Positions 29,000-36,075 of a stretch of DNA of 64,000 nt are shown here, one piece after another. Below the pieces are notes generated by a model, which did no database searches, had not been told where the DNA came from, and saw only the letters and a program-made list of their open reading frames with translations. This DNA is from Candidatus Lindowbacteria bacterium RIFCSPLOWO2_12_FULL_62_27 (GTDB taxonomy: Bacteria > Lindowbacteria > 2-12-FULL-62-27). The stretch spans positions 186,001-250,000 of the forward strand of contig MFPR01000004.1 of the NCBI GenBank assembly GCA_001784175.1. The letters are read 5' to 3'. The translations under genes were made by a program, and so were the position numbers. Within the stretch, counting starts at the first letter, position 1; every line of letters begins with the position of its first letter.

Positions 29000-29040
29000 G
29001 CTGTTGTGTATTGTACAACTTATACTGGAACCCGTCAAAT

Positions 29041-29219
29041 GGGAAGAAGACAGAAGACAGAAGACAGGAGACAGAAGAAAACCGACCCACGTGAACGTAC
29101 ACATGCACATGCCCGAGAAGACGGCTCCCGATGATGTGCGCCGACGCCATCCCGGCCTCCATCTGATTTTCCGGTTTTCTGTGTTTCTTCTGTCTCCTGT
29201 CTTCTGTCTTCTGTCTTCT
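29041..29219. mobile_element. Deleted derivative of the S23 inverted-repeat unit
   Basis: Left arm 29045-29080 and right arm 29184-29219 are perfect 36-bp reverse complements made of GACAGAAG words. Just before the right arm, at 29141-29167, the sequence still encodes the last residues of the S23-type protein (ADAIPASI and stop). The rest of the gene is gone. The centre (29086-29140) holds words ACGTGAACGTACAC unrelated to the gene. Confidence 0.75.
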
Positions 29220-29282
29220 CTCCACGGTCCACGGTCCATCGCTCTTGCGGGCGCCATCGCTCTCAGGGATAATAGTCGGGAC

Positions 29283-29802
29283 ATGTATTACGAGGCGCTC
29301 TTTCAGCGGCTGAATGGACACCGGGTAAAGTATCTGGTCTGCGGCGGCGTGGCCGTGAATCTCCACGGAGTCCCGCGATACACCAAGGACACCGACCTCC
29401 TGGCCGATTTGGGGCCGAAGAACCTCGGGCGACTCTGGGATGCGTTGATCTCCCTCGGATACAAACCGGTCCGGCCCGTCACGAGGGCGCAGTTTACGGC
29501 CAAGGACGCTGTCCGGTGGCTCAGGGAGGAAAAGAACGCGGGGGTGTTCAGTTTCGTCATTCCGGACCATCCGTTCTCGCTGGTGGATGTCCTGCTGGAG
29601 TCGCCGGTCCAGTTTCAGGATGCGAGGAAGAATTTCAAGAAAGCCTGGATTGGCGACCTGATGATTCCCTTCATTTCGATGCCGGATCTGATTAAAATGA
29701 AAAAAAAAAGCGGGGCGCAACCAGGATGTATCCGACATCCGGGCGCTCCGGAAGGCGGCGAAGTATGTCCAGAAACTCCAAAAAATCCGCCCGGCGCCCT
29801 GA
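29283..29802 (+). pseudogene. Nucleotidyltransferase (AbiEii/DUF6036-like), frameshifted in an A10 run
   Basis: The frame starts MYYEALFQRLNG and carries YLVCGGVAVNLHG and YTKDTDLLAD (D36, D38). After PDLIKMKKK the frame runs into an unrelated reading. Removing one A from the run of ten at 29700-29709 restores the natural end AGRNQDVSDIRALRKAAKYV and a stop at 29800-29802, 39 bp into the next gene. It is either a true frameshift, a slippery phase-variable tract, or a base-calling error. Confidence 0.7.
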
Positions 29803-29974
29803 CCGCCGGCGCGGCTTTTCCTACTCGGTCACGGACGCCCAGATCCGCGAGTGGCTCAGGTTCCCCGTCCGGGAGAAACTCCTCTGGCTGGAGGAGGCGA
29901 ACCGATTCAATGAGAAGGCCCTCCGCGGCGGAACGCTCCGGGTCTGGGAGGCGTTCCGGGCGGGGAGGATCTGA
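29765..29974 (+). CDS. Small partner protein of the nucleotidyltransferase
   Basis: 69 residues, starting inside the restored end of the nucleotidyltransferase gene. The basic N-terminus is followed by IREWLRFPVREKLLWLEEANRF, a helix commonly found in small proteins next to nucleotidyltransferases. It is probably the second gene of a toxin-antitoxin-like pair. It ends just before the left end of an inverted-repeat unit. Confidence 0.65.
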   Translation: MSRNSKKSARRPDRRRGFSYSVTDAQIREWLRFPVREKLLWLEEANRFNEKALRGGTLRVWEAFRAGRI

Positions 29975-29976
29975 CG

Positions 29977-30026
29977 CCTGGGAAGAAGACAGAATACAGA
30001 ATACAGGAGACAGAAGAAAACCAACC
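29977..30026. repeat. Solitary left arm of the S23 inverted-repeat unit
   Basis: CCTGGGAAGAAGACAG followed by CAGAATAC-type words and GAAAACCAACCCA, matching the left ends at 31253, 32426 and 29041. No right arm and no S23 coding remains follow before the next gene at 30083. Confidence 0.8.
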
Positions 30027-30082: not shown

Positions 30083-30367
30083 ATGGACTCGCGCGATGAG
30101 GTTGTATTCTGGGATGAACCCATGACCCGGCGCCAACTCCGGGAAATTCTCGGATCGACGGCACACCCGCAATGGGCCTATTACGCCGGCAAAATCCTCC
30201 GGGAATTTCGCCCAGACCGCGTCTGGTCCTACCTCTCCCCGCAGGAGGTGGCCGATCGCTGGCCGGACCTGCGCCGATACCTCGGCCGCAGCCGGCCGTT
30301 GTGGTCGCTTCTTTTCGCCAAATGGATCGAGTTCGGCTATGTCCGATCTTCTGCTCCCATCGCATAA
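30083..30367 (+). CDS. Small protein preceding the AbiEii-type nucleotidyltransferase
   Basis: 94 residues, not recognised as a named family. It has MTRRQLREILGSTAHPQWAY at 14-33, perhaps a small DNA-binding region, then helices. It overlaps the AbiEii-like gene by 29 bp, the arrangement expected of an antitoxin (AbiEi role) with its toxin. The role is inferred from position. Confidence 0.65.
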   Translation: MDSRDEVVFWDEPMTRRQLREILGSTAHPQWAYYAGKILREFRPDRVWSYLSPQEVADRWPDLRRYLGRSRPLWSLLFAKWIEFGYVRSSAPIA

Positions 30368-30992
30368 ACGGTTCCTGGACGTTTTCTTTTCCAAAACCGG
30401 CGGGTTTTTTCTGACGGGCGGAACCGCTCTGAGCGTCTTCTATCTGCAGCACAGGCGTTCGGACGACTTGGACCTCTTCACGCTGAGCGGCGACCGGTTT
30501 TCGGAAGTCCGGGGCATTCTGCAGGCGGTCATTCACGAGACGGGCGGAACCTGGGAGGCGGACCGGACGGCGCCCCATTTCCACCGGGGAGTATGGCGGC
30601 CGGTCGGAGACCCCGCCGGCGTCAAAATTGATATGGTGTGGGAAACGGCGGTCCAGGCCGTGGAAAAGAAAAAGATGTTCGGCCCATACGCCGTCGACGG
30701 GCCGGAAGACATCTGCGCCAACAAATTCTGCACCCTTCTGTCCCGATCCGAACTCCGTGACGCCATTGACCTGTTCTTTCTCGACCGCTCCGGCCTCCGA
30801 ATCCTCGACCATTTTCCGGCCGCGCAGAAAAAGGACGCAGGCCTGACGCGGGAGATCCTCTGCCAGATCTGCTCCGACATCCGCCTGGACTCTTGGCCGC
30901 CCTACATGATCCAAAAACCCGACCTCCAAAACTTCAATCGCTTCTTCGCCGACCTCACCGACCTCCTGGCCCGCGAAACATTTCCGCGGTAG
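30339..30992 (+). CDS. AbiEii/AbiGii-family nucleotidyltransferase (toxin-like)
   Basis: 217 residues. GGFFLTGGTALSVFYL and RRSDDLDLFT (D43, D45) are the AbiEii nucleotidyltransferase signature. Family members charge or block tRNA ends and cause growth arrest in abortive phage defence. Translation is coupled to the small gene upstream. It is the third nucleotidyltransferase module between 28.1 and 31.0 kb; the three are not close copies of each other. Confidence 0.82.
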   Translation: MSDLLLPSHKRFLDVFFSKTGGFFLTGGTALSVFYLQHRRSDDLDLFTLSGDRFSEVRGILQAVIHETGGTWEADRTAPHFHRGVWRPVGDPAGVKIDMVWETAVQAVEKKKMFGPYAVDGPEDICANKFCTLLSRSELRDAIDLFFLDRSGLRILDHFPAAQKKDAGLTREILCQICSDIRLDSWPPYMIQKPDLQNFNRFFADLTDLLARETFPR

Positions 30993-31003: not shown

Positions 31004-31342
31004 ATGGAGACGGAGAACTTGGCGGATGGATGCCGGCGCTGGAAACGGGGGTTTGAGGCTGCGGAGGCGGCGCTGCGGGCGGAGAAAATCGAATGGCTGA
31101 CCCGAATGTCCGCCGCCGAATCCCGCCGCGTCTATGACGGGCTCTGCGGACTCTATTACGCGCGCGGAGCGGCAGCCGCCAACCGCACGGAAGACCCCGC
31201 CAAATTGGCGCAGGTTAGGGTCAGACGCCGGTTGAATCTCATGGCCCTCTCGCTTGGGAAGAAGACAGAAGACAGAATACAGGAGACAGAAGAAAATCGA
31301 CCCACAAAAGGAGAAAAGCATGGAAAAGGCGAAAACATTTGA
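31004..31342 (+). CDS. Small helical protein with a repeat-derived C-terminus
   Basis: 112 residues from METENLADGCRRW. The first ~84 are helical and resemble no family I can name. From about residue 84 on (LGKKTEDRIQETEENR) the frame is translated from the left inverted repeat of the S23 unit and runs into the S23 start. The natural stop was probably lost when that unit inserted. AbiEii ends 11 bp upstream, so the gene may belong to that module. Confidence 0.55.
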   Translation: METENLADGCRRWKRGFEAAEAALRAEKIEWLTRMSAAESRRVYDGLCGLYYARGAAAANRTEDPAKLAQVRVRRRLNLMALSLGKKTEDRIQETEENRPTKGEKHGKGENI

Positions 31343-31736
31343 GGAGCTGACGGTCTGGCAGAAGGCGCATCGGGTGGTGCTCGGGATTTATCGCGCGACG
31401 GCCGGGTTTCCGAAACATGAAATCTACGGTCTGACGTCCCAATTCCGAAGGTCGGCCGTGTCCATCCCGGCCAATATCGCCGAAGGATTCAAAAAACGGG
31501 GCAAGCCGGACAAGGCGCGATTCATGAACACGGCCCAGGGATCCCTGGAGGAGACCCGCTACTATCTGATCCTTTCACGGGACCTGGGCTACATGAACTC
31601 GTCCGCATTGTTGGACGACGTGGACGAGGTCGGCCGGCTCCTCTCAGCCTACACCGACGCCATCCTGTCCTCTATTTGATTTTCCGGTTTTCTGTGTTTC
31701 TTCTGTCTCCTGTATTCTGTCTTCTGTCTTCTCGCA
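31253..31736 (+). mobile_element. Intact S23 unit: four-helix-bundle gene inside perfect inverted repeats
   Basis: Arms 31260-31295 and 31697-31732 are exact 36-bp reverse complements built from GACAGAAG and GAATACAG words. They enclose one complete gene (31320-31679) with its own ribosome site. Only about 17-24 bp separate arm and gene on each side. The left end extends as CTTGGGAAG. Derivatives lie at 29041-29219, 29977-30026 and 32426-33396. No transposase is encoded, so any movement would be in trans or by RNA. Confidence 0.72.
31320..31679 (+). CDS. S23/IVP-type four-helix-bundle protein
   Basis: 119 residues: FEELTVWQKAHRVVLGIYRA, then SQFRRSAVSIPANIAEGFKKR and SLEETRYYLILSRDLGY, the hallmark of the S23 family first seen in intervening sequences of 23S rRNA. 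Its biochemical role is unknown. AAAGGAG sits 7 nt before the ATG. The gene is the only cargo of an inverted-repeat unit. A 5' fragment nearly identical over 63 codons lies at 32495-32695. Confidence 0.9.
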   Translation: MEKAKTFEELTVWQKAHRVVLGIYRATAGFPKHEIYGLTSQFRRSAVSIPANIAEGFKKRGKPDKARFMNTAQGSLEETRYYLILSRDLGYMNSSALLDDVDEVGRLLSAYTDAILSSI

Positions 31737-31785: not shown

Positions 31786-32046
31786 ATGAGAAAGAAACCG
31801 GAGCGGATCGAGACCATTCGGCGGCGGCATCGGGGCAGAAAGCTGTGGCTGCTCATCGCGGTGGATACACTGGACCCGGAAACGGGGCTGGGACTGACCG
31901 GGCGGCTTTTGGCCAAAGACCCCGACCCCCATGCGCTGACCCCGGTGGCCCTGAAAACCAAACACCGGCATCTGGCGGTCGAGTGTTCCGAGGACATGCC
32001 CAAAGACACCGTCTGCATCTTCCTTCATGTCAGTCCAGCGGCTTGA
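31786..32046 (+). CDS. Small unknown protein upstream of a retropepsin-like gene
   Basis: 86 residues (MRKKPERIETIRRRHRGRK...), a basic N-terminus then a probable beta sheet (KLWLLIAVDTLDPETGLG). I recognise no family. It overlaps the aspartyl-protease-like gene by 20 bp, so the two are likely co-translated partners. The right arm of the S23 unit ends 54 bp upstream. Confidence 0.6.
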   Translation: MRKKPERIETIRRRHRGRKLWLLIAVDTLDPETGLGLTGRLLAKDPDPHALTPVALKTKHRHLAVECSEDMPKDTVCIFLHVSPAA

Positions 32047-32425
32047 TCCAAAGCCGGACGTCATTGTCGTCAAGGCGACCGTGTACGGTGCGCGGGAGCG
32101 GGTCGAAACCCGCCTGATCCTTGACACCGGGGCCGCCACCACGTTGATCGATCCCGACATCCTGCTGGTGGCGGGGTATGATCCCGCAAAGGCTGTTCGT
32201 CGACAGGCCATGACCACGGCCAGCGGCCATGCCTATGCGCCTCTACTCGCGGTGCGTCGTCTTGTGGTCCTCGGGCATGCCGTCGGGACCATTGACGTGG
32301 TCGCCCATTCCCTGCCTCCGAACGTCCCCGTCCGGGGACTTTTGGGCATGAATTTCCTTCGGCATTTCAACCTCCACCTCGAATTCCCGGCGCGCCGGCT
32401 GCGGATGGAAGGGGGGAGAAGCTGA
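32027..32425 (+). CDS. Retropepsin-like aspartic protease
   Basis: 132 residues. LILDTGAATTLID (D33, T34, G35) is the retropepsin active-site loop, and the late GLLGMNFL matches the family's flanking motif. A single-domain protein of this size would work as a dimer. No signal peptide is seen, so it is probably cytosolic. Its stop codon lies one base before the left end of the next inverted-repeat unit. Confidence 0.8.
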   Translation: MSVQRLDPKPDVIVVKATVYGARERVETRLILDTGAATTLIDPDILLVAGYDPAKAVRRQAMTTASGHAYAPLLAVRRLVVLGHAVGTIDVVAHSLPPNVPVRGLLGMNFLRHFNLHLEFPARRLRMEGGRS

Positions 32426-32494
32426 GGCTTGGGAAGAAGACAGAAGACAGAATACAGGAGACAGAAGAAAATCGACCCACAAAAGGAGAAAAGC

Positions 32495-32695
32495 ATGGAA
32501 AAGGCGAAAACATTTGAGGAGTTGACGGTCTGGCAGAAGGCGCATCGGGTGGTGCTCGGGATTTATCGCGCGACGGCCGGGTTTCCGAAACATGAAATCT
32601 ACGGCCTGACGTCCCAATTCCGAAGGTCGGCCGTGTCCATCCCGGCCAACATCGCCGAAGGATTCAAAAAGCGAGGCAAGCCGGATCATGAATGA
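32495..32695 (+). pseudogene. Truncated S23-type gene
   Basis: 66 codons, the first 63 encoding the same protein as the intact gene at 31320 with only a few silent changes, then broken after RGKPD by an AT-rich hairpin. The near identity of the two blocks, including the upstream repeat, shows a recent duplication. Confidence 0.85.
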
Positions 32696-32773
32696 TTATT
32701 TGTCATTTCTTATTGGTTATTGGTCAGTTCCAAATAACAAATAGAAAACAACAAATGACCAATAACAAATAAT
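32692..32773. repeat. AT-rich word hairpin (ATTATTTGTCATT type)
   Basis: TTATTTGTCATTTCTTATTG on the left is matched by CAAATGACCAATAACAAATAA on the right. The words differ from the other hairpins, but the plan is the same. It marks the exact break point of the truncated S23 gene. 32774-32920 shows no gene. Confidence 0.8.
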
Positions 32774-32920
32774 CCTTGATGGGTCTCTTGTGCCTCTTGT
32801 GTAAAAAATGCGTAACTCGTGTTACCTGGTGTCTGGTGAAAAAGGGTTCGAGGATTCGAGGGGTCGAGGGTTCAAGTGAAATTCTCCCTCTGTGTGAGTA
32901 CAAATTAGAGAGCAGAACGG

Positions 32921-33019
32921 TTACTGCTGTTCTGTCTTTTTCGCCAAATACAGCGCAACTACACCGTAGAGCAGACCAAAAATCGAAAATACCAAAAGCG
33001 CGGTTTCTCGTGCGTCCAT
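32921..33019 (-). CDS. Tiny single-helix membrane protein (pair 1, second gene)
   Basis: 32 residues: MDARETALLVFSIFGLLYGV..., one membrane helix (about 8-26) and a charged tail KKTEQQ. It follows the 60-residue gene by 14 bp. The same two-gene plan recurs at 38056-38347, 40427-40593, 44760-44937 and 46541-46851, which is the main reason to believe that such a short frame is real. Function unknown. Confidence 0.6.
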   Translation of the reverse strand: MDARETALLVFSIFGLLYGVVALYLAKKTEQQ

Positions 33020-33033
33020 GTGTGAATCATCCC

Positions 33034-33216
33034 CTAACTTTTCTTTTTTGTCAACGCGACGGCCATCATAAGAAGCGCCACGCCCGTCAGCCACCCGATG
33101 AACTGAACGGGCCGGAGACTTTCGCGCGTTATCCAGTCCGCAAAACTGCCGATGATCGCCGCAAGGCCAAAACTGCGGACGTGGATTTTTATTTCCTCGA
33201 TGCGTTCCGGCGTCAT
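33034..33216 (-). CDS. Small two-helix membrane protein (pair 1, first gene)
   Basis: 60 residues: MTPERIEEIKIHVRSFGLAA..., two hydrophobic segments (about 13-27 and 38-54) and a KKKS tail. Size, topology and basic end match the first genes of the other pairs and resemble DUF6722-like small membrane proteins. Longer frames upstream are translated from the inverted repeat. It lies inside the composite S23 unit, opposite in strand to the S23 fragment. Confidence 0.6.
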   Translation of the reverse strand: MTPERIEEIKIHVRSFGLAAIIGSFADWITRESLRPVQFIGWLTGVALLMMAVALTKKKS

Positions 33217-33422
33217 ATCAGCGCCGCCGCCGCGGCCGGAATGTCCGATTGGAACGATGCCGTGTCCATGCTCTGCATTATCGGCATCAGCGTGATTCCT
33301 CGTGAGGGCCGACGCCATCCCGGCCTCTATTTGATTTTCCGGTTTTCTATGTTTCTTCTGTCTCCTGTATTCTGTCTCCTGTCTTCTTCCCAAGCCCCCA
33401 AAAAAATATTTTGAAAAAATAC

Positions 33423-33702: not shown

Positions 33703-35397
33703 TTGAAGCACGGATTAATCTTTTTTGCGGCGCTGGTCGCGGTGGCGCTGGTTGTCAGTCCCGCAGCTTGGGCGGATACGAAGCAAGTAGACAGCCTCAG
33801 TAACACGACCACAGATGCAGGCGCTGATATTGCTGTTGGTGCTAATGGCGATATCTACGTGAGCGCCAAAGTTAGCGCGCAGCAGTTACAAGTCCAAAAG
33901 GGCACCAATGGGGGGACGTTTACAGATTTTTTACCCGCCACTGTTGTTGATACCAACTCGACGGCGGCCAGTGTTTCTACGCAGAGAACTGCCATTGCTC
34001 TTTATGGTCCTACCGACTCACCGATCGTGGCAATCGATTCGGTTATAGCGGGGCCAGGAGGGGGCACCGACACAAGTCGCGGGATCGCCATCTATGTGAA
34101 TGACACGGGTACCTCAACCATGCGGCGGCTTACGACAGTAGATTTGCGTGGTGCTTCCCTCGAAACACAGACTCAGAGGATAACAGCATTTGACTTGCTG
34201 GCTAATGACAGTTATGTCATCCTTTGTGTCAATTATGGATCGCCAAGCAGCGCTTCTGGCTCCGTTAGGCAGGCGGACACGCTTGCGTTGTTTATCTGGC
34301 GTGTAGCTGGGAACGGAGCTGCGTTGGCGTCTCTCGAGTATACACGGTACGTGCTTGATACTGACCCCGGTTTGGGCGCCGATTTGCAGATCGCAGAAGG
34401 ACCTGCCGGGGGTCTGAAAGTTGCGACGGATACGGCGTTCAGGTTTTACGTTATGCTCAATGTGACCGAAGACACCGAGGCCAATGCTGGTGAGGGTGTT
34501 ACTATTGAAGACAGAGACACTGGTATATCTGTATATCGTGTGACGTTGGCAGATTCTTCGTCAGGAGGCCCTGGTTTATGGTCTGCCAAGTTGCGATTCA
34601 GCTCGTCCAGATACGGAGTTATTTCGGCTGGTGGCGGTGACACATTTGTTGACGCGGCCATGGCGCTGGATCAGGAAGACGCGGGTGACACGATTGATCG
34701 TGTGACCATTATTGTGTCGCCCCATACGCAGCAAAAGGGGGCAGACACGCTGTTCATCCTCGTGATTGATGATGACTCGGCATCAATCCCTCCTGCCAAT
34801 TCAAACGCTGGGGATAGTGCGGCTAATGGATCGCCATTCCAGTGGTCCGATACGTTCTCACAGCTTGATACAGGCCTTGCAAACGTGGCACAGACTGTTG
34901 CGGCGAGACCGGCGTCTCTGGCATTCAACAGATCAGGCAACGCGCTGACTCTGTACTACATTTCGAACGCCGGTAATCTCTACAAGGCGACGGCATCCCT
35001 TGACGCGACCTCGCGGGGGTACGACACTTCATTTGCAGCGTCGATCTCGTGGAGCGTGGATACCCTCAACCAAAATCTCGGATACGCGCACAACGATCCC
35101 GTTATGGACATTGCTGCTAATCTTCCGAACACTCGAAGTTATCTAGAACTGTCGCAGACCGTGGTGAATAACGTGCTTTATGTGGTCGGCCACGACAGGA
35201 CGAGCGGAAGGATTTGGTATGTGACCTCCAGCGCCGCCGCGGAGTCAAAGAAGAAAGAGAGCGCGGTGTGTTTGATGGACCGTTTGTTAGGGAAGACAGG
35301 ATTGCGGGCGGCGTTTCCAGCGCTCAAGACGTTCCGTGACACCCTCCTCGGGACGGATTTGGGCCGGAAGGCTGTCAGTCTGTATTACGGGTTCTAA
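33703..35397 (+). CDS. Secreted repeat-poor surface protein with CFI-box-like C-terminus
   Basis: 564 residues. A signal peptide (MKHGLIFFAALVAVALVVSP...AWA, cleavage near residue 24) leads into a long, mostly beta, Asp/Thr/Ser-rich region with no catalytic motif I recognise. The C-terminus has CLMDRLLGKTGLRAAF and then LKTFRDTLLGTDLGRKAVSLYY. Spacing from Cys to FRD and on to GR...YY equals that of CFI-box-type C-terminal modules, though CFIATAAYG itself is degenerate. TTG 33703 is preferred: it has a good ribosome site and precedes the signal peptide. Codon use is visibly less GC-rich than in the flanking chromosome. Its 3' end is the source of the repeats below. Confidence 0.75.
   Translation: MKHGLIFFAALVAVALVVSPAAWADTKQVDSLSNTTTDAGADIAVGANGDIYVSAKVSAQQLQVQKGTNGGTFTDFLPATVVDTNSTAASVSTQRTAIALYGPTDSPIVAIDSVIAGPGGGTDTSRGIAIYVNDTGTSTMRRLTTVDLRGASLETQTQRITAFDLLANDSYVILCVNYGSPSSASGSVRQADTLALFIWRVAGNGAALASLEYTRYVLDTDPGLGADLQIAEGPAGGLKVATDTAFRFYVMLNVTEDTEANAGEGVTIEDRDTGISVYRVTLADSSSGGPGLWSAKLRFSSSRYGVISAGGGDTFVDAAMALDQEDAGDTIDRVTIIVSPHTQQKGADTLFILVIDDDSASIPPANSNAGDSAANGSPFQWSDTFSQLDTGLANVAQTVAARPASLAFNRSGNALTLYYISNAGNLYKATASLDATSRGYDTSFAASISWSVDTLNQNLGYAHNDPVMDIAANLPNTRSYLELSQTVVNNVLYVVGHDRTSGRIWYVTSSAAAESKKKESAVCLMDRLLGKTGLRAAFPALKTFRDTLLGTDLGRKAVSLYYGF
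35261..35397 (+). repeat. C-terminal module repeat, copy A (in frame, parental)
   Basis: The 3' 137 bp of the secreted-protein gene, from GCGCGGTGTGTTTGATGGAC to TATTACGGGTTCTAA. Nine other copies lie downstream and share 60-170 bp. Only this one keeps the whole reading frame. Confidence 0.9.
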
Positions 35398-35448
35398 GTC
35401 AGTCAACCAAGTATCATCGGCGCTTCTAAACCTTTAAGAAGCCCTTTC

Positions 35449-35492
35449 AACCCTGTTGTGGCGAACCAACGCCGCAACAGGGTTTTTTATTT
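35449..35492 (+). terminator. Intrinsic terminator T1 of the secreted-protein gene
   Basis: A 15-bp stem (AACCCTGTTGTGGCG against CGCCGCAACAGGGTT, one G-U) with a 6-nt loop, then TTTTTTATTT. The preceding ~50 bp (ATCATCGGCGCTTCTAAACC) is repeated together with it at 36127, 40681, 41506 and 45119. Confidence 0.9.
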
Positions 35493-35582
35493 GGTAACTA
35501 CTCGGGAGGAACGAACCACGAATGAACACGAATGGACACGAATTGTTGTTGAAGGAGGAAGTGTACGAGGTCGTGGGATGTT

Positions 35583-35763
35583 GTCATGGTGTCATTCTTC
35601 TACTTTGCTACTTTCGAGCGCAGTGTGCTTGATGGACCGGCTGTTCGGGAAGACAGGATTGCGGGCGGTGCTTGCAGGCGCTCAAGACGTTCCGTGACAC
35701 CCTCCTCGGAACGGATTTGGGGCGGAAGGCCGTCGGTCTGTATTACCCAGGGGTTTTTATTTT
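35583..35763 (+). repeat. C-terminal module repeat, copy B
   Basis: Begins GTCATGGTGTCATTCTTC, a 40-bp leader shared by copies B, C, D, G, H and I but absent from the parental gene. A one-base insertion before CTCAAGACG breaks the frame. It ends TATTACCCAGGGG and TTTTTATTTT. Between T1 and this copy is only a half CACGAA hairpin (35513-35546). 35764-35903 shows no gene. Confidence 0.85.
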
Positions 35764-35903
35764 CGGGTCTTCCGGTTTTCCTGTGGGTAAAAGAGAGGCA
35801 TTTTATCGGGAGACGCGCCCCCTCTCCCGAACCCTCTACCCCACATTCCCCCTTCTCGAATGTCGTCAACGTCATGGATCTGGGATGAACGATGTGAGTG
35901 GTT

Positions 35904-36075
35904 TCATGGTGTCATTCTTCTACTTTGCTACTTTCGGGCGCGGTGTGTTTGATGGACCGTTTGTTCGGGAAGACAGGATTGCGGGCGGTGCTTGCAGGCG
36001 CTCAAGACGTTCCGTGACACCCTCCTCGGGACGGATTTGGGTCGGAAGGCTGTCAGTCTGTATTACGGGTTCTAA
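35904..36075 (+). repeat. C-terminal module repeat, copy C
   Basis: Same leader and same one-base insertion as copy B, but followed by GGGTTCTAA and the full terminator block, as in the parental gene. It lacks any upstream coding part of the surface protein. Confidence 0.88.

Follow-up and report, generated by a model that had tools for sequence, protein, structure and literature searches.

Inverted heptamer arrays around S23 genes mark a probable class of small mobile cassettes in bacteria of many phyla

Why should a gene of the S23 family, described from intervening sequences (IVS) of rRNA, lie within a perfect inverted repeat among ordinary protein-coding genes? The question is raised by a 64,000-nucleotide stretch of Candidatus Lindowbacteria DNA, which is referred to here as the window. 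To our knowledge, the description of the rRNA IVS has not been followed by agreement on what S23 proteins do. The sequence-only reading of the window had claimed that two exact 36-nt reverse complements enclose one S23 gene and nothing else, and this was confirmed by the sequence and by profile searches. The intact unit (copy 3, 31255..31736, + strand) consists of a 5' arm of tandem heptamers (ACAGAAG/ACAGAAT/ACAGGAG) that is purine-rich on the sense strand (31260–31295, +), a 3' arm (31697–31732, − strand) and, between them, an ORF for a 119-aa four-helix-bundle protein of the S23, or 23S_rRNA_IVP, family (31320–31679, +; PF05635, E 1e-35; TIGR02436, E 6e-34; AlphaFold matches). Neither the ORF list nor the profile search found a recombinase or transposase gene between the arms, where the S23 ORF stands alone. 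The make-up of the arms as runs of a heptamer rather than unique sequence was no part of the sequence-only reading. The inverted repeat is far above chance, since its arms score 37.5, whereas equally long random intervals from loci of the same kind reach 20.4 at their 99.9th percentile. Folded as RNA, the unit is 6.3 SD better than shuffles. A host ORF known from the ORF list (31004..31342, +) runs with its 3' end into the 5' arm, and the unit appears to have entered near the original end of that ORF. The statement that defence-like genes lie next to the unit was partly right, the neighbour at 30339–30992 being AbiEii-like (PF08843, E 2.5e-13).

Derivatives had also been proposed nearby, and three relatives of the unit do lie within 4.4 kb. 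Copy 1 (29040..29224, +, 185 bp) is an S23-less, MITE-like derivative with 103 nt between its arms (29040–29080 and 29184–29224); it retains both ends of the S23 unit and lacks the coding middle, as expected from a mobile element. Copy 2 (29979..30019, +) is a lone 5' arm that begins about 5 nt past the stop codon of the ORF at 29726–29974. Copy 4 (32426..33396, +) starts 2–4 nt past the stop codon of the ORF at 32027–32425 and is a broken S23 unit, in which the 5' arm and the first part of S23 are followed by a nested hairpin, foreign DNA and then the 3' end with its arm; its first 259 nt are 98% identical to copy 3. The nested hairpin (32687..32781, no strand assigned) carries no S23, belongs to a different heptamer class (TTATTTG/TCATTT...) and resembles the arms of L004, another S23 gene of the same genome. 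Elsewhere in the window (35222–36000), a block of about 100 nt occurs three times at 61–93% identity, together with a 69-nt companion repeat.

The genome to which the window belongs (4.39 Mb, 44 contigs) holds four S23 matches besides the window gene, one of them being the broken copy 4. A search for S23 units at other loci, as had been suggested, returned further units with different arms: L003 and L004 each have arms of their own, built on the octamer CAATGAAC in L003 and on TTTTCTATTTGTCAT in L004. The fifth S23 match of the genome is weak and under the family cut-off. For rRNA, the other place proposed for such units, a coarse check with five short rRNA motifs matched none of the fetched loci, and it thus revealed no S23 unit in 23S rRNA among them. 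Three loci of this genome (L013, L021 and L027) carry arm heptamers without S23; the group comprises one cargo-free hairpin and lone arrays located right after a stop codon, upstream of genes reading like rho and leuS.

Are such arms a general property of S23 genes? The best 80 matches of a genome-contig scan, relatives of the window genome and cyanobacterial plasmids gave 138 distinct S23 genes with usable flanks from many phyla, a sample that is biased to relatives of the window gene. For each gene, the two flanks were compared within 200 bp by aligning the upstream one to the reverse-complemented downstream one, and 1052 random intervals served as controls. Inverted arms exceeding the 99th percentile of the controls were found in 95 of the 138 genes (1.4 expected), so that most of the sampled S23 genes do have flanking inverted repeats, and 43 had no arms above threshold within 200 bp. 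When the same genes were scored for arms in direct orientation, 15 passed. Flanks swapped between different loci were above threshold in 132 of 690 cases; part of the arm signal is therefore a shared motif, and true pairs are far better. The best period was 7, 14 or 8 in 92 of the 95 armed genes, and the upstream arm was purine-rich in 88. The heptamers themselves differ strongly between units (GGAGTCA, GAAGCCA, GGGATTA, GTAGGTC, GTTAACA, GGGAACA, GGTGACA, AAATCCT and others). One genome (G010, L172–L175) holds 19 short S23-like matches, many of them arranged as closely spaced divergent pairs.

Arm sequence follows the protein. Among 3478 pairs of units from different hosts, S23 identity predicted arm similarity (rho 0.707; 0/2000 permutations), with arms being alike above about 50% amino acid identity and unrelated below it. 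At 50–60% protein identity, non-coding DNA free of constraint would be expected to have become unalignable; selection on the arms or their continual renewal is therefore likely. In addition, similarity is higher between the two arms within a unit than between these arms and those of the closest relative (39 vs 14, p 9e-4), and a single template may therefore serve to rewrite both.

The presence of empty sites in close relatives had been named as a check on mobility, and plasmid and chromosomal sites that are occupied in one relative and empty in another were indeed found; they resolve the insertion to the base. In the VirB region of a group of plasmids, the unit follows AAAAAGTAAT and precedes TAATTAACAAATA, with TAAT repeated, and six further VirB-operon plasmids show a full-length uninterrupted match across the site at about 98% identity; AAAAAGTAATTAACAAATA stands at the site in the two empty-site plasmids whose sequence was read. 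The same site carries a truncated S23 unit in one plasmid (L189) and an S23-less arm pair in another (L190). In related Nostoc plasmids, a GGAGTCA unit lies between genes A and B, where sister plasmids have a 3-nt gap, and one sister has a very different GGGGAAA unit between B and C, two genes that otherwise abut or overlap. Thus, the A|B and B|C gaps of one operon hold different S23 classes in sister plasmids. On the Anabaena chromosome, a site that is occupied at L275 is empty in another species (L329) at 92% identity, with CATTAAAAGTCA on both sides of the unit; part of this flanking repeat (AGTCA) is itself heptamer-like. The direct repeats at insertions vary in length among four sites (4–5, 5, about 3 and up to 12 nt). 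At homologous sites, then, the S23 unit is present or absent as a single whole. The proposal that S23 genes form a small mobile unit of their own is supported by these occupied and empty pairs together with the 95 armed genes, so that both outcomes named in advance as refuting it were contradicted, and we regard S23 units as real mobile cassettes with high confidence.

Two further observations were made at cyanobacterial loci. At an Anabaena-type site, the S23 gene of L337 is reversed between intact heptamer arms relative to L287 and L344, as if it had been flipped by recombination between the arms or had been inserted independently. In cyanobacteria, CRISPR operons also contain S23 units (L183, L184), located between cas10 and cmr3 and between cas6 and cas4, where they are likely passengers.

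At the homologous plasmid and chromosomal sites, S23 units insert at the junction of a stop codon and the next start codon, and in the CAG class the array starts a median of 1.5 nt from the upstream stop codon. Counting neighbours within 400 nt, by heuristic ORF calls and with some of the loci related, the upstream gene was co-directional in 77 of 80 armed units vs 66% of other genes in the loci, and the downstream gene showed no orientation bias. Lone arrays were considered as strand-biased insertions and rejected as such: GGAGTCA arrays in Anabaena had no strand preference (18/28), and no bias was seen in 40 Anabaena/Dolichospermum regions. The orientation bias therefore belongs to the S23 unit, and would be explained most simply if S23 needs transcription from the upstream gene. 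Hundreds of GGAGTCA array matches are present in Anabaena catenula (G060, L229–L259), often with TATAGC or TACAGC just before them and without strand preference relative to neighbours.

AlphaFold models the S23 protein of the window as a four-helix bundle (pLDDT 97), for which the best structural matches are 2gsc and 2rld, followed by Avd, both alone (4dwl, TM about 0.78) and within the reverse transcriptase (RT) complex of diversity-generating retroelements (DGR). The sequence match to Avd is weak (bAvd E 2e-4, below its cut-off; NCBIfam Avd score 29 vs a cut-off of 80). Avd is a binding cofactor of DGR, and it is therefore reasonable to think, by analogy, that S23 has a binding role. An enzyme acting in trans is plausible, and here Y1_Tnp stood out: it was present in all 24 S23-positive genomes vs 17 of 36 S23-negative genomes (p 7e-6), and the partial rank correlation was 0.52 after genome size. 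The general control DDE_Tnp_1 was not associated with S23 in the same 24 positive and 36 negative genomes (p 0.79). ParE was weakly associated (p 0.036), and a shared lifestyle may therefore underlie the Y1 association, which is between genomes only; a single-phylum replicate comprised three genomes only, each of which carried both families. The Y1 transposase genes (about 320 aa; L347–L366) mostly lie within inverted repeats of their own, 24–44 nt long and often starting GGGGTCAG, with a 7-, 8- or 9-mer frequently duplicated, exactly or nearly so, at the inner ends, a design similar to that of S23 units. The Y1 and S23 arms of the same genomes share no sequence (6.0 vs 5.8), and the role of Y1 is therefore a lead only.

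The explanation that we find rather probable is that the S23 gene with its two inverted heptamer arrays is a mobile element, in which an Avd-like S23 recognises the arms and an enzyme supplied in trans does the cutting. S23 would be transcribed from the upstream gene, and the protein, a relative of Avd, would bind its own heptamer arrays as a folded DNA or RNA hairpin. Arm-bound S23 would then recruit a cutting and joining enzyme encoded at another locus, for which a Y1 (HUH) single-strand transposase is the best candidate; arm pairs without S23, like lone arrays, would represent non-autonomous derivatives of the unit. On the narrower point that S23 itself drives movement through its arms, we lean slightly in favour. 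The variable direct repeats argue against this explanation because they are unlike the fixed footprint of a transposase; Y1 elements of the IS200/IS605 type are not known to make direct repeats at all. Further points against it are the 43 S23 genes with no arms above threshold, the lack of shared arm sequence between Y1 and S23 units, the between-genome nature of the Y1 association alongside the weak ParE signal, and the absence of strand preference in lone GGAGTCA arrays of Anabaena.

S23 might instead be only cargo, unrelated to movement, with the inverted arms serving as substrate of a Y1/HUH-type transposase encoded elsewhere. The ubiquity of Y1_Tnp in the S23-positive genomes, the duplicated 7- to 9-mers in the inverted repeats of the Y1 genes and the existence of S23-less derivatives would all fit. 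Cargo should vary, yet S23 is the sole gene in the armed units examined (a weak argument, as the search began from S23); moreover, the arms follow the S23 protein across hosts and do not match those of Y1 in the same genome. We consider this account unlikely. Movement through RNA, in which the hairpin transcript of the unit and an Avd-like S23 engage a reverse transcriptase whose cDNA product is inserted as the new copy, draws on the structural similarity to Avd as seen in the DGR RT ribonucleoprotein, the stable RNA hairpin and the sense orientation to the upstream gene. An RT partner was nevertheless rejected: RVT_1 was found in 7 of 24 S23-positive vs 10 of 36 S23-negative genomes (p 1), and 17 of the 24 have no match to it, including the near-complete G018, G041 and G055 with 7–9 S23 genes. 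An RT partner is therefore unlikely, and this route as a whole is highly improbable.

Homologous recombination between dispersed heptamer arrays, themselves maintained by some other means, could also spread S23. In favour, lone arrays of the same heptamer are numerous in cyanobacterial genomes, and some native target sequences are similar to the arm heptamer (p 0.0026 by permutation for ten sites, a signal driven by three sites that may be scars). Several targets (VirB, A|B and B|C) are nonetheless free of heptamer arrays when empty, and insertion into one array fails to explain why the arms are inverted and not direct, which makes such exchange very unlikely as the means of spread. Finally, the units might not be mobile at all, arrays having grown in place around S23 genes and absence reflecting gene loss. 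Array copy number does differ at orthologous sites (L178 vs L179), and scars or other inserts are seen at two sites. Clean empty sites at 92–98% identity with a duplicated target largely exclude this possibility, and it is further contradicted by the finding that adjacent gaps of a single operon hold different S23 classes in sister plasmids and by the occurrence of 60–70% identical S23 proteins in different phyla; we give it hardly any credence.

How does the mobile S23 unit relate to systems already described? The closest is the S23-bearing IVS in the 23S rRNA of Coxiella and Leptospira (PMC4990558, citing Ralph and McClelland 1993). Both are one-gene units of about 430–480 nt with the same protein family, a sporadic distribution and suspected mobility, and in both the inverted ends can pair into a long stem at the RNA level, of 28 bp in Coxiella and 36 in the window unit. 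The rRNA IVS are further characterised by excision from the RNA by RNase III. Unlike the rRNA IVS, the window unit sits between protein-coding ORFs, its arms are tandem heptamers and insertion polymorphism is visible. With DGR, S23 has in common the Avd fold and the weak sequence match, but the S23 unit contains no RT, template or variable repeat, and its host genomes often lack an RVT_1 match. REP/REPIN sequences with their Y1 enzyme RAYT resemble S23 units in their small inverted repeats and candidate Y1 enzyme in trans; S23 arms, in contrast, are tandem heptamers of many sequences with a protein gene inside, and the Y1 genes present in these genomes have arms that do not match them. S23 units resemble MITEs and insertion sequences in their inverted ends, in the short direct repeats seen at some insertion sites and in derivatives with internal deletions; they differ in having no transposase and a target duplication of variable length. 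Comparison with the Y1 units of the same genomes found no parent autonomous element with matching arms.

Heptamer arrays are familiar in cyanobacteria as STRR. Arrays of TAACTGA are reported in Beggiatoaceae, cyanobacteria and Bacteroidetes, with no evident transmission mechanism, no known source and no mention of S23 (PMC4679880). Like S23 arms, these arrays are tandem heptamers, intergenic and patchy across phyla, but they are described as direct and without an associated gene, whereas S23 arms are inverted pairs around one. An Anabaena locus (L283, G068:C32) has an S23 gene with inverted heptamer arms of the TAACTGA type. In the open-access literature, we found no description of heptamer-armed S23 units or of S23 with inverted repeats outside rRNA. 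The heptamer-armed S23 unit would be a new kind of mobile element, because for each known mobile family considered at least one defining feature does not fit; more cautiously, if the rRNA IVS is the parent class, the unit would be a variant of it.

Both 'remnant of transposition' and 'mobile element whose ORF is needed for mobility' are still listed as hypotheses for the IVS (PMC4990558). A broader reading, which we put forward tentatively, is that a minimal class of mobile elements exists in many phyla, in which one Avd-like protein recognises clade-specific heptamers and an enzyme in trans inserts the unit between stop and start codons; the rRNA IVS would then be the case that landed in rRNA, and scattered heptamer arrays would be by-products. 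The S23 cassette thus offers a concrete lead on the decades-old question of the S23 IVS proteins and of scattered heptamers, and the occupied and empty sites, together with the co-variation of arms and protein across phyla, make both testable in laboratory cyanobacteria. If true, a mobile element with a small binding protein as its sole gene would be an unusual form of selfish DNA.
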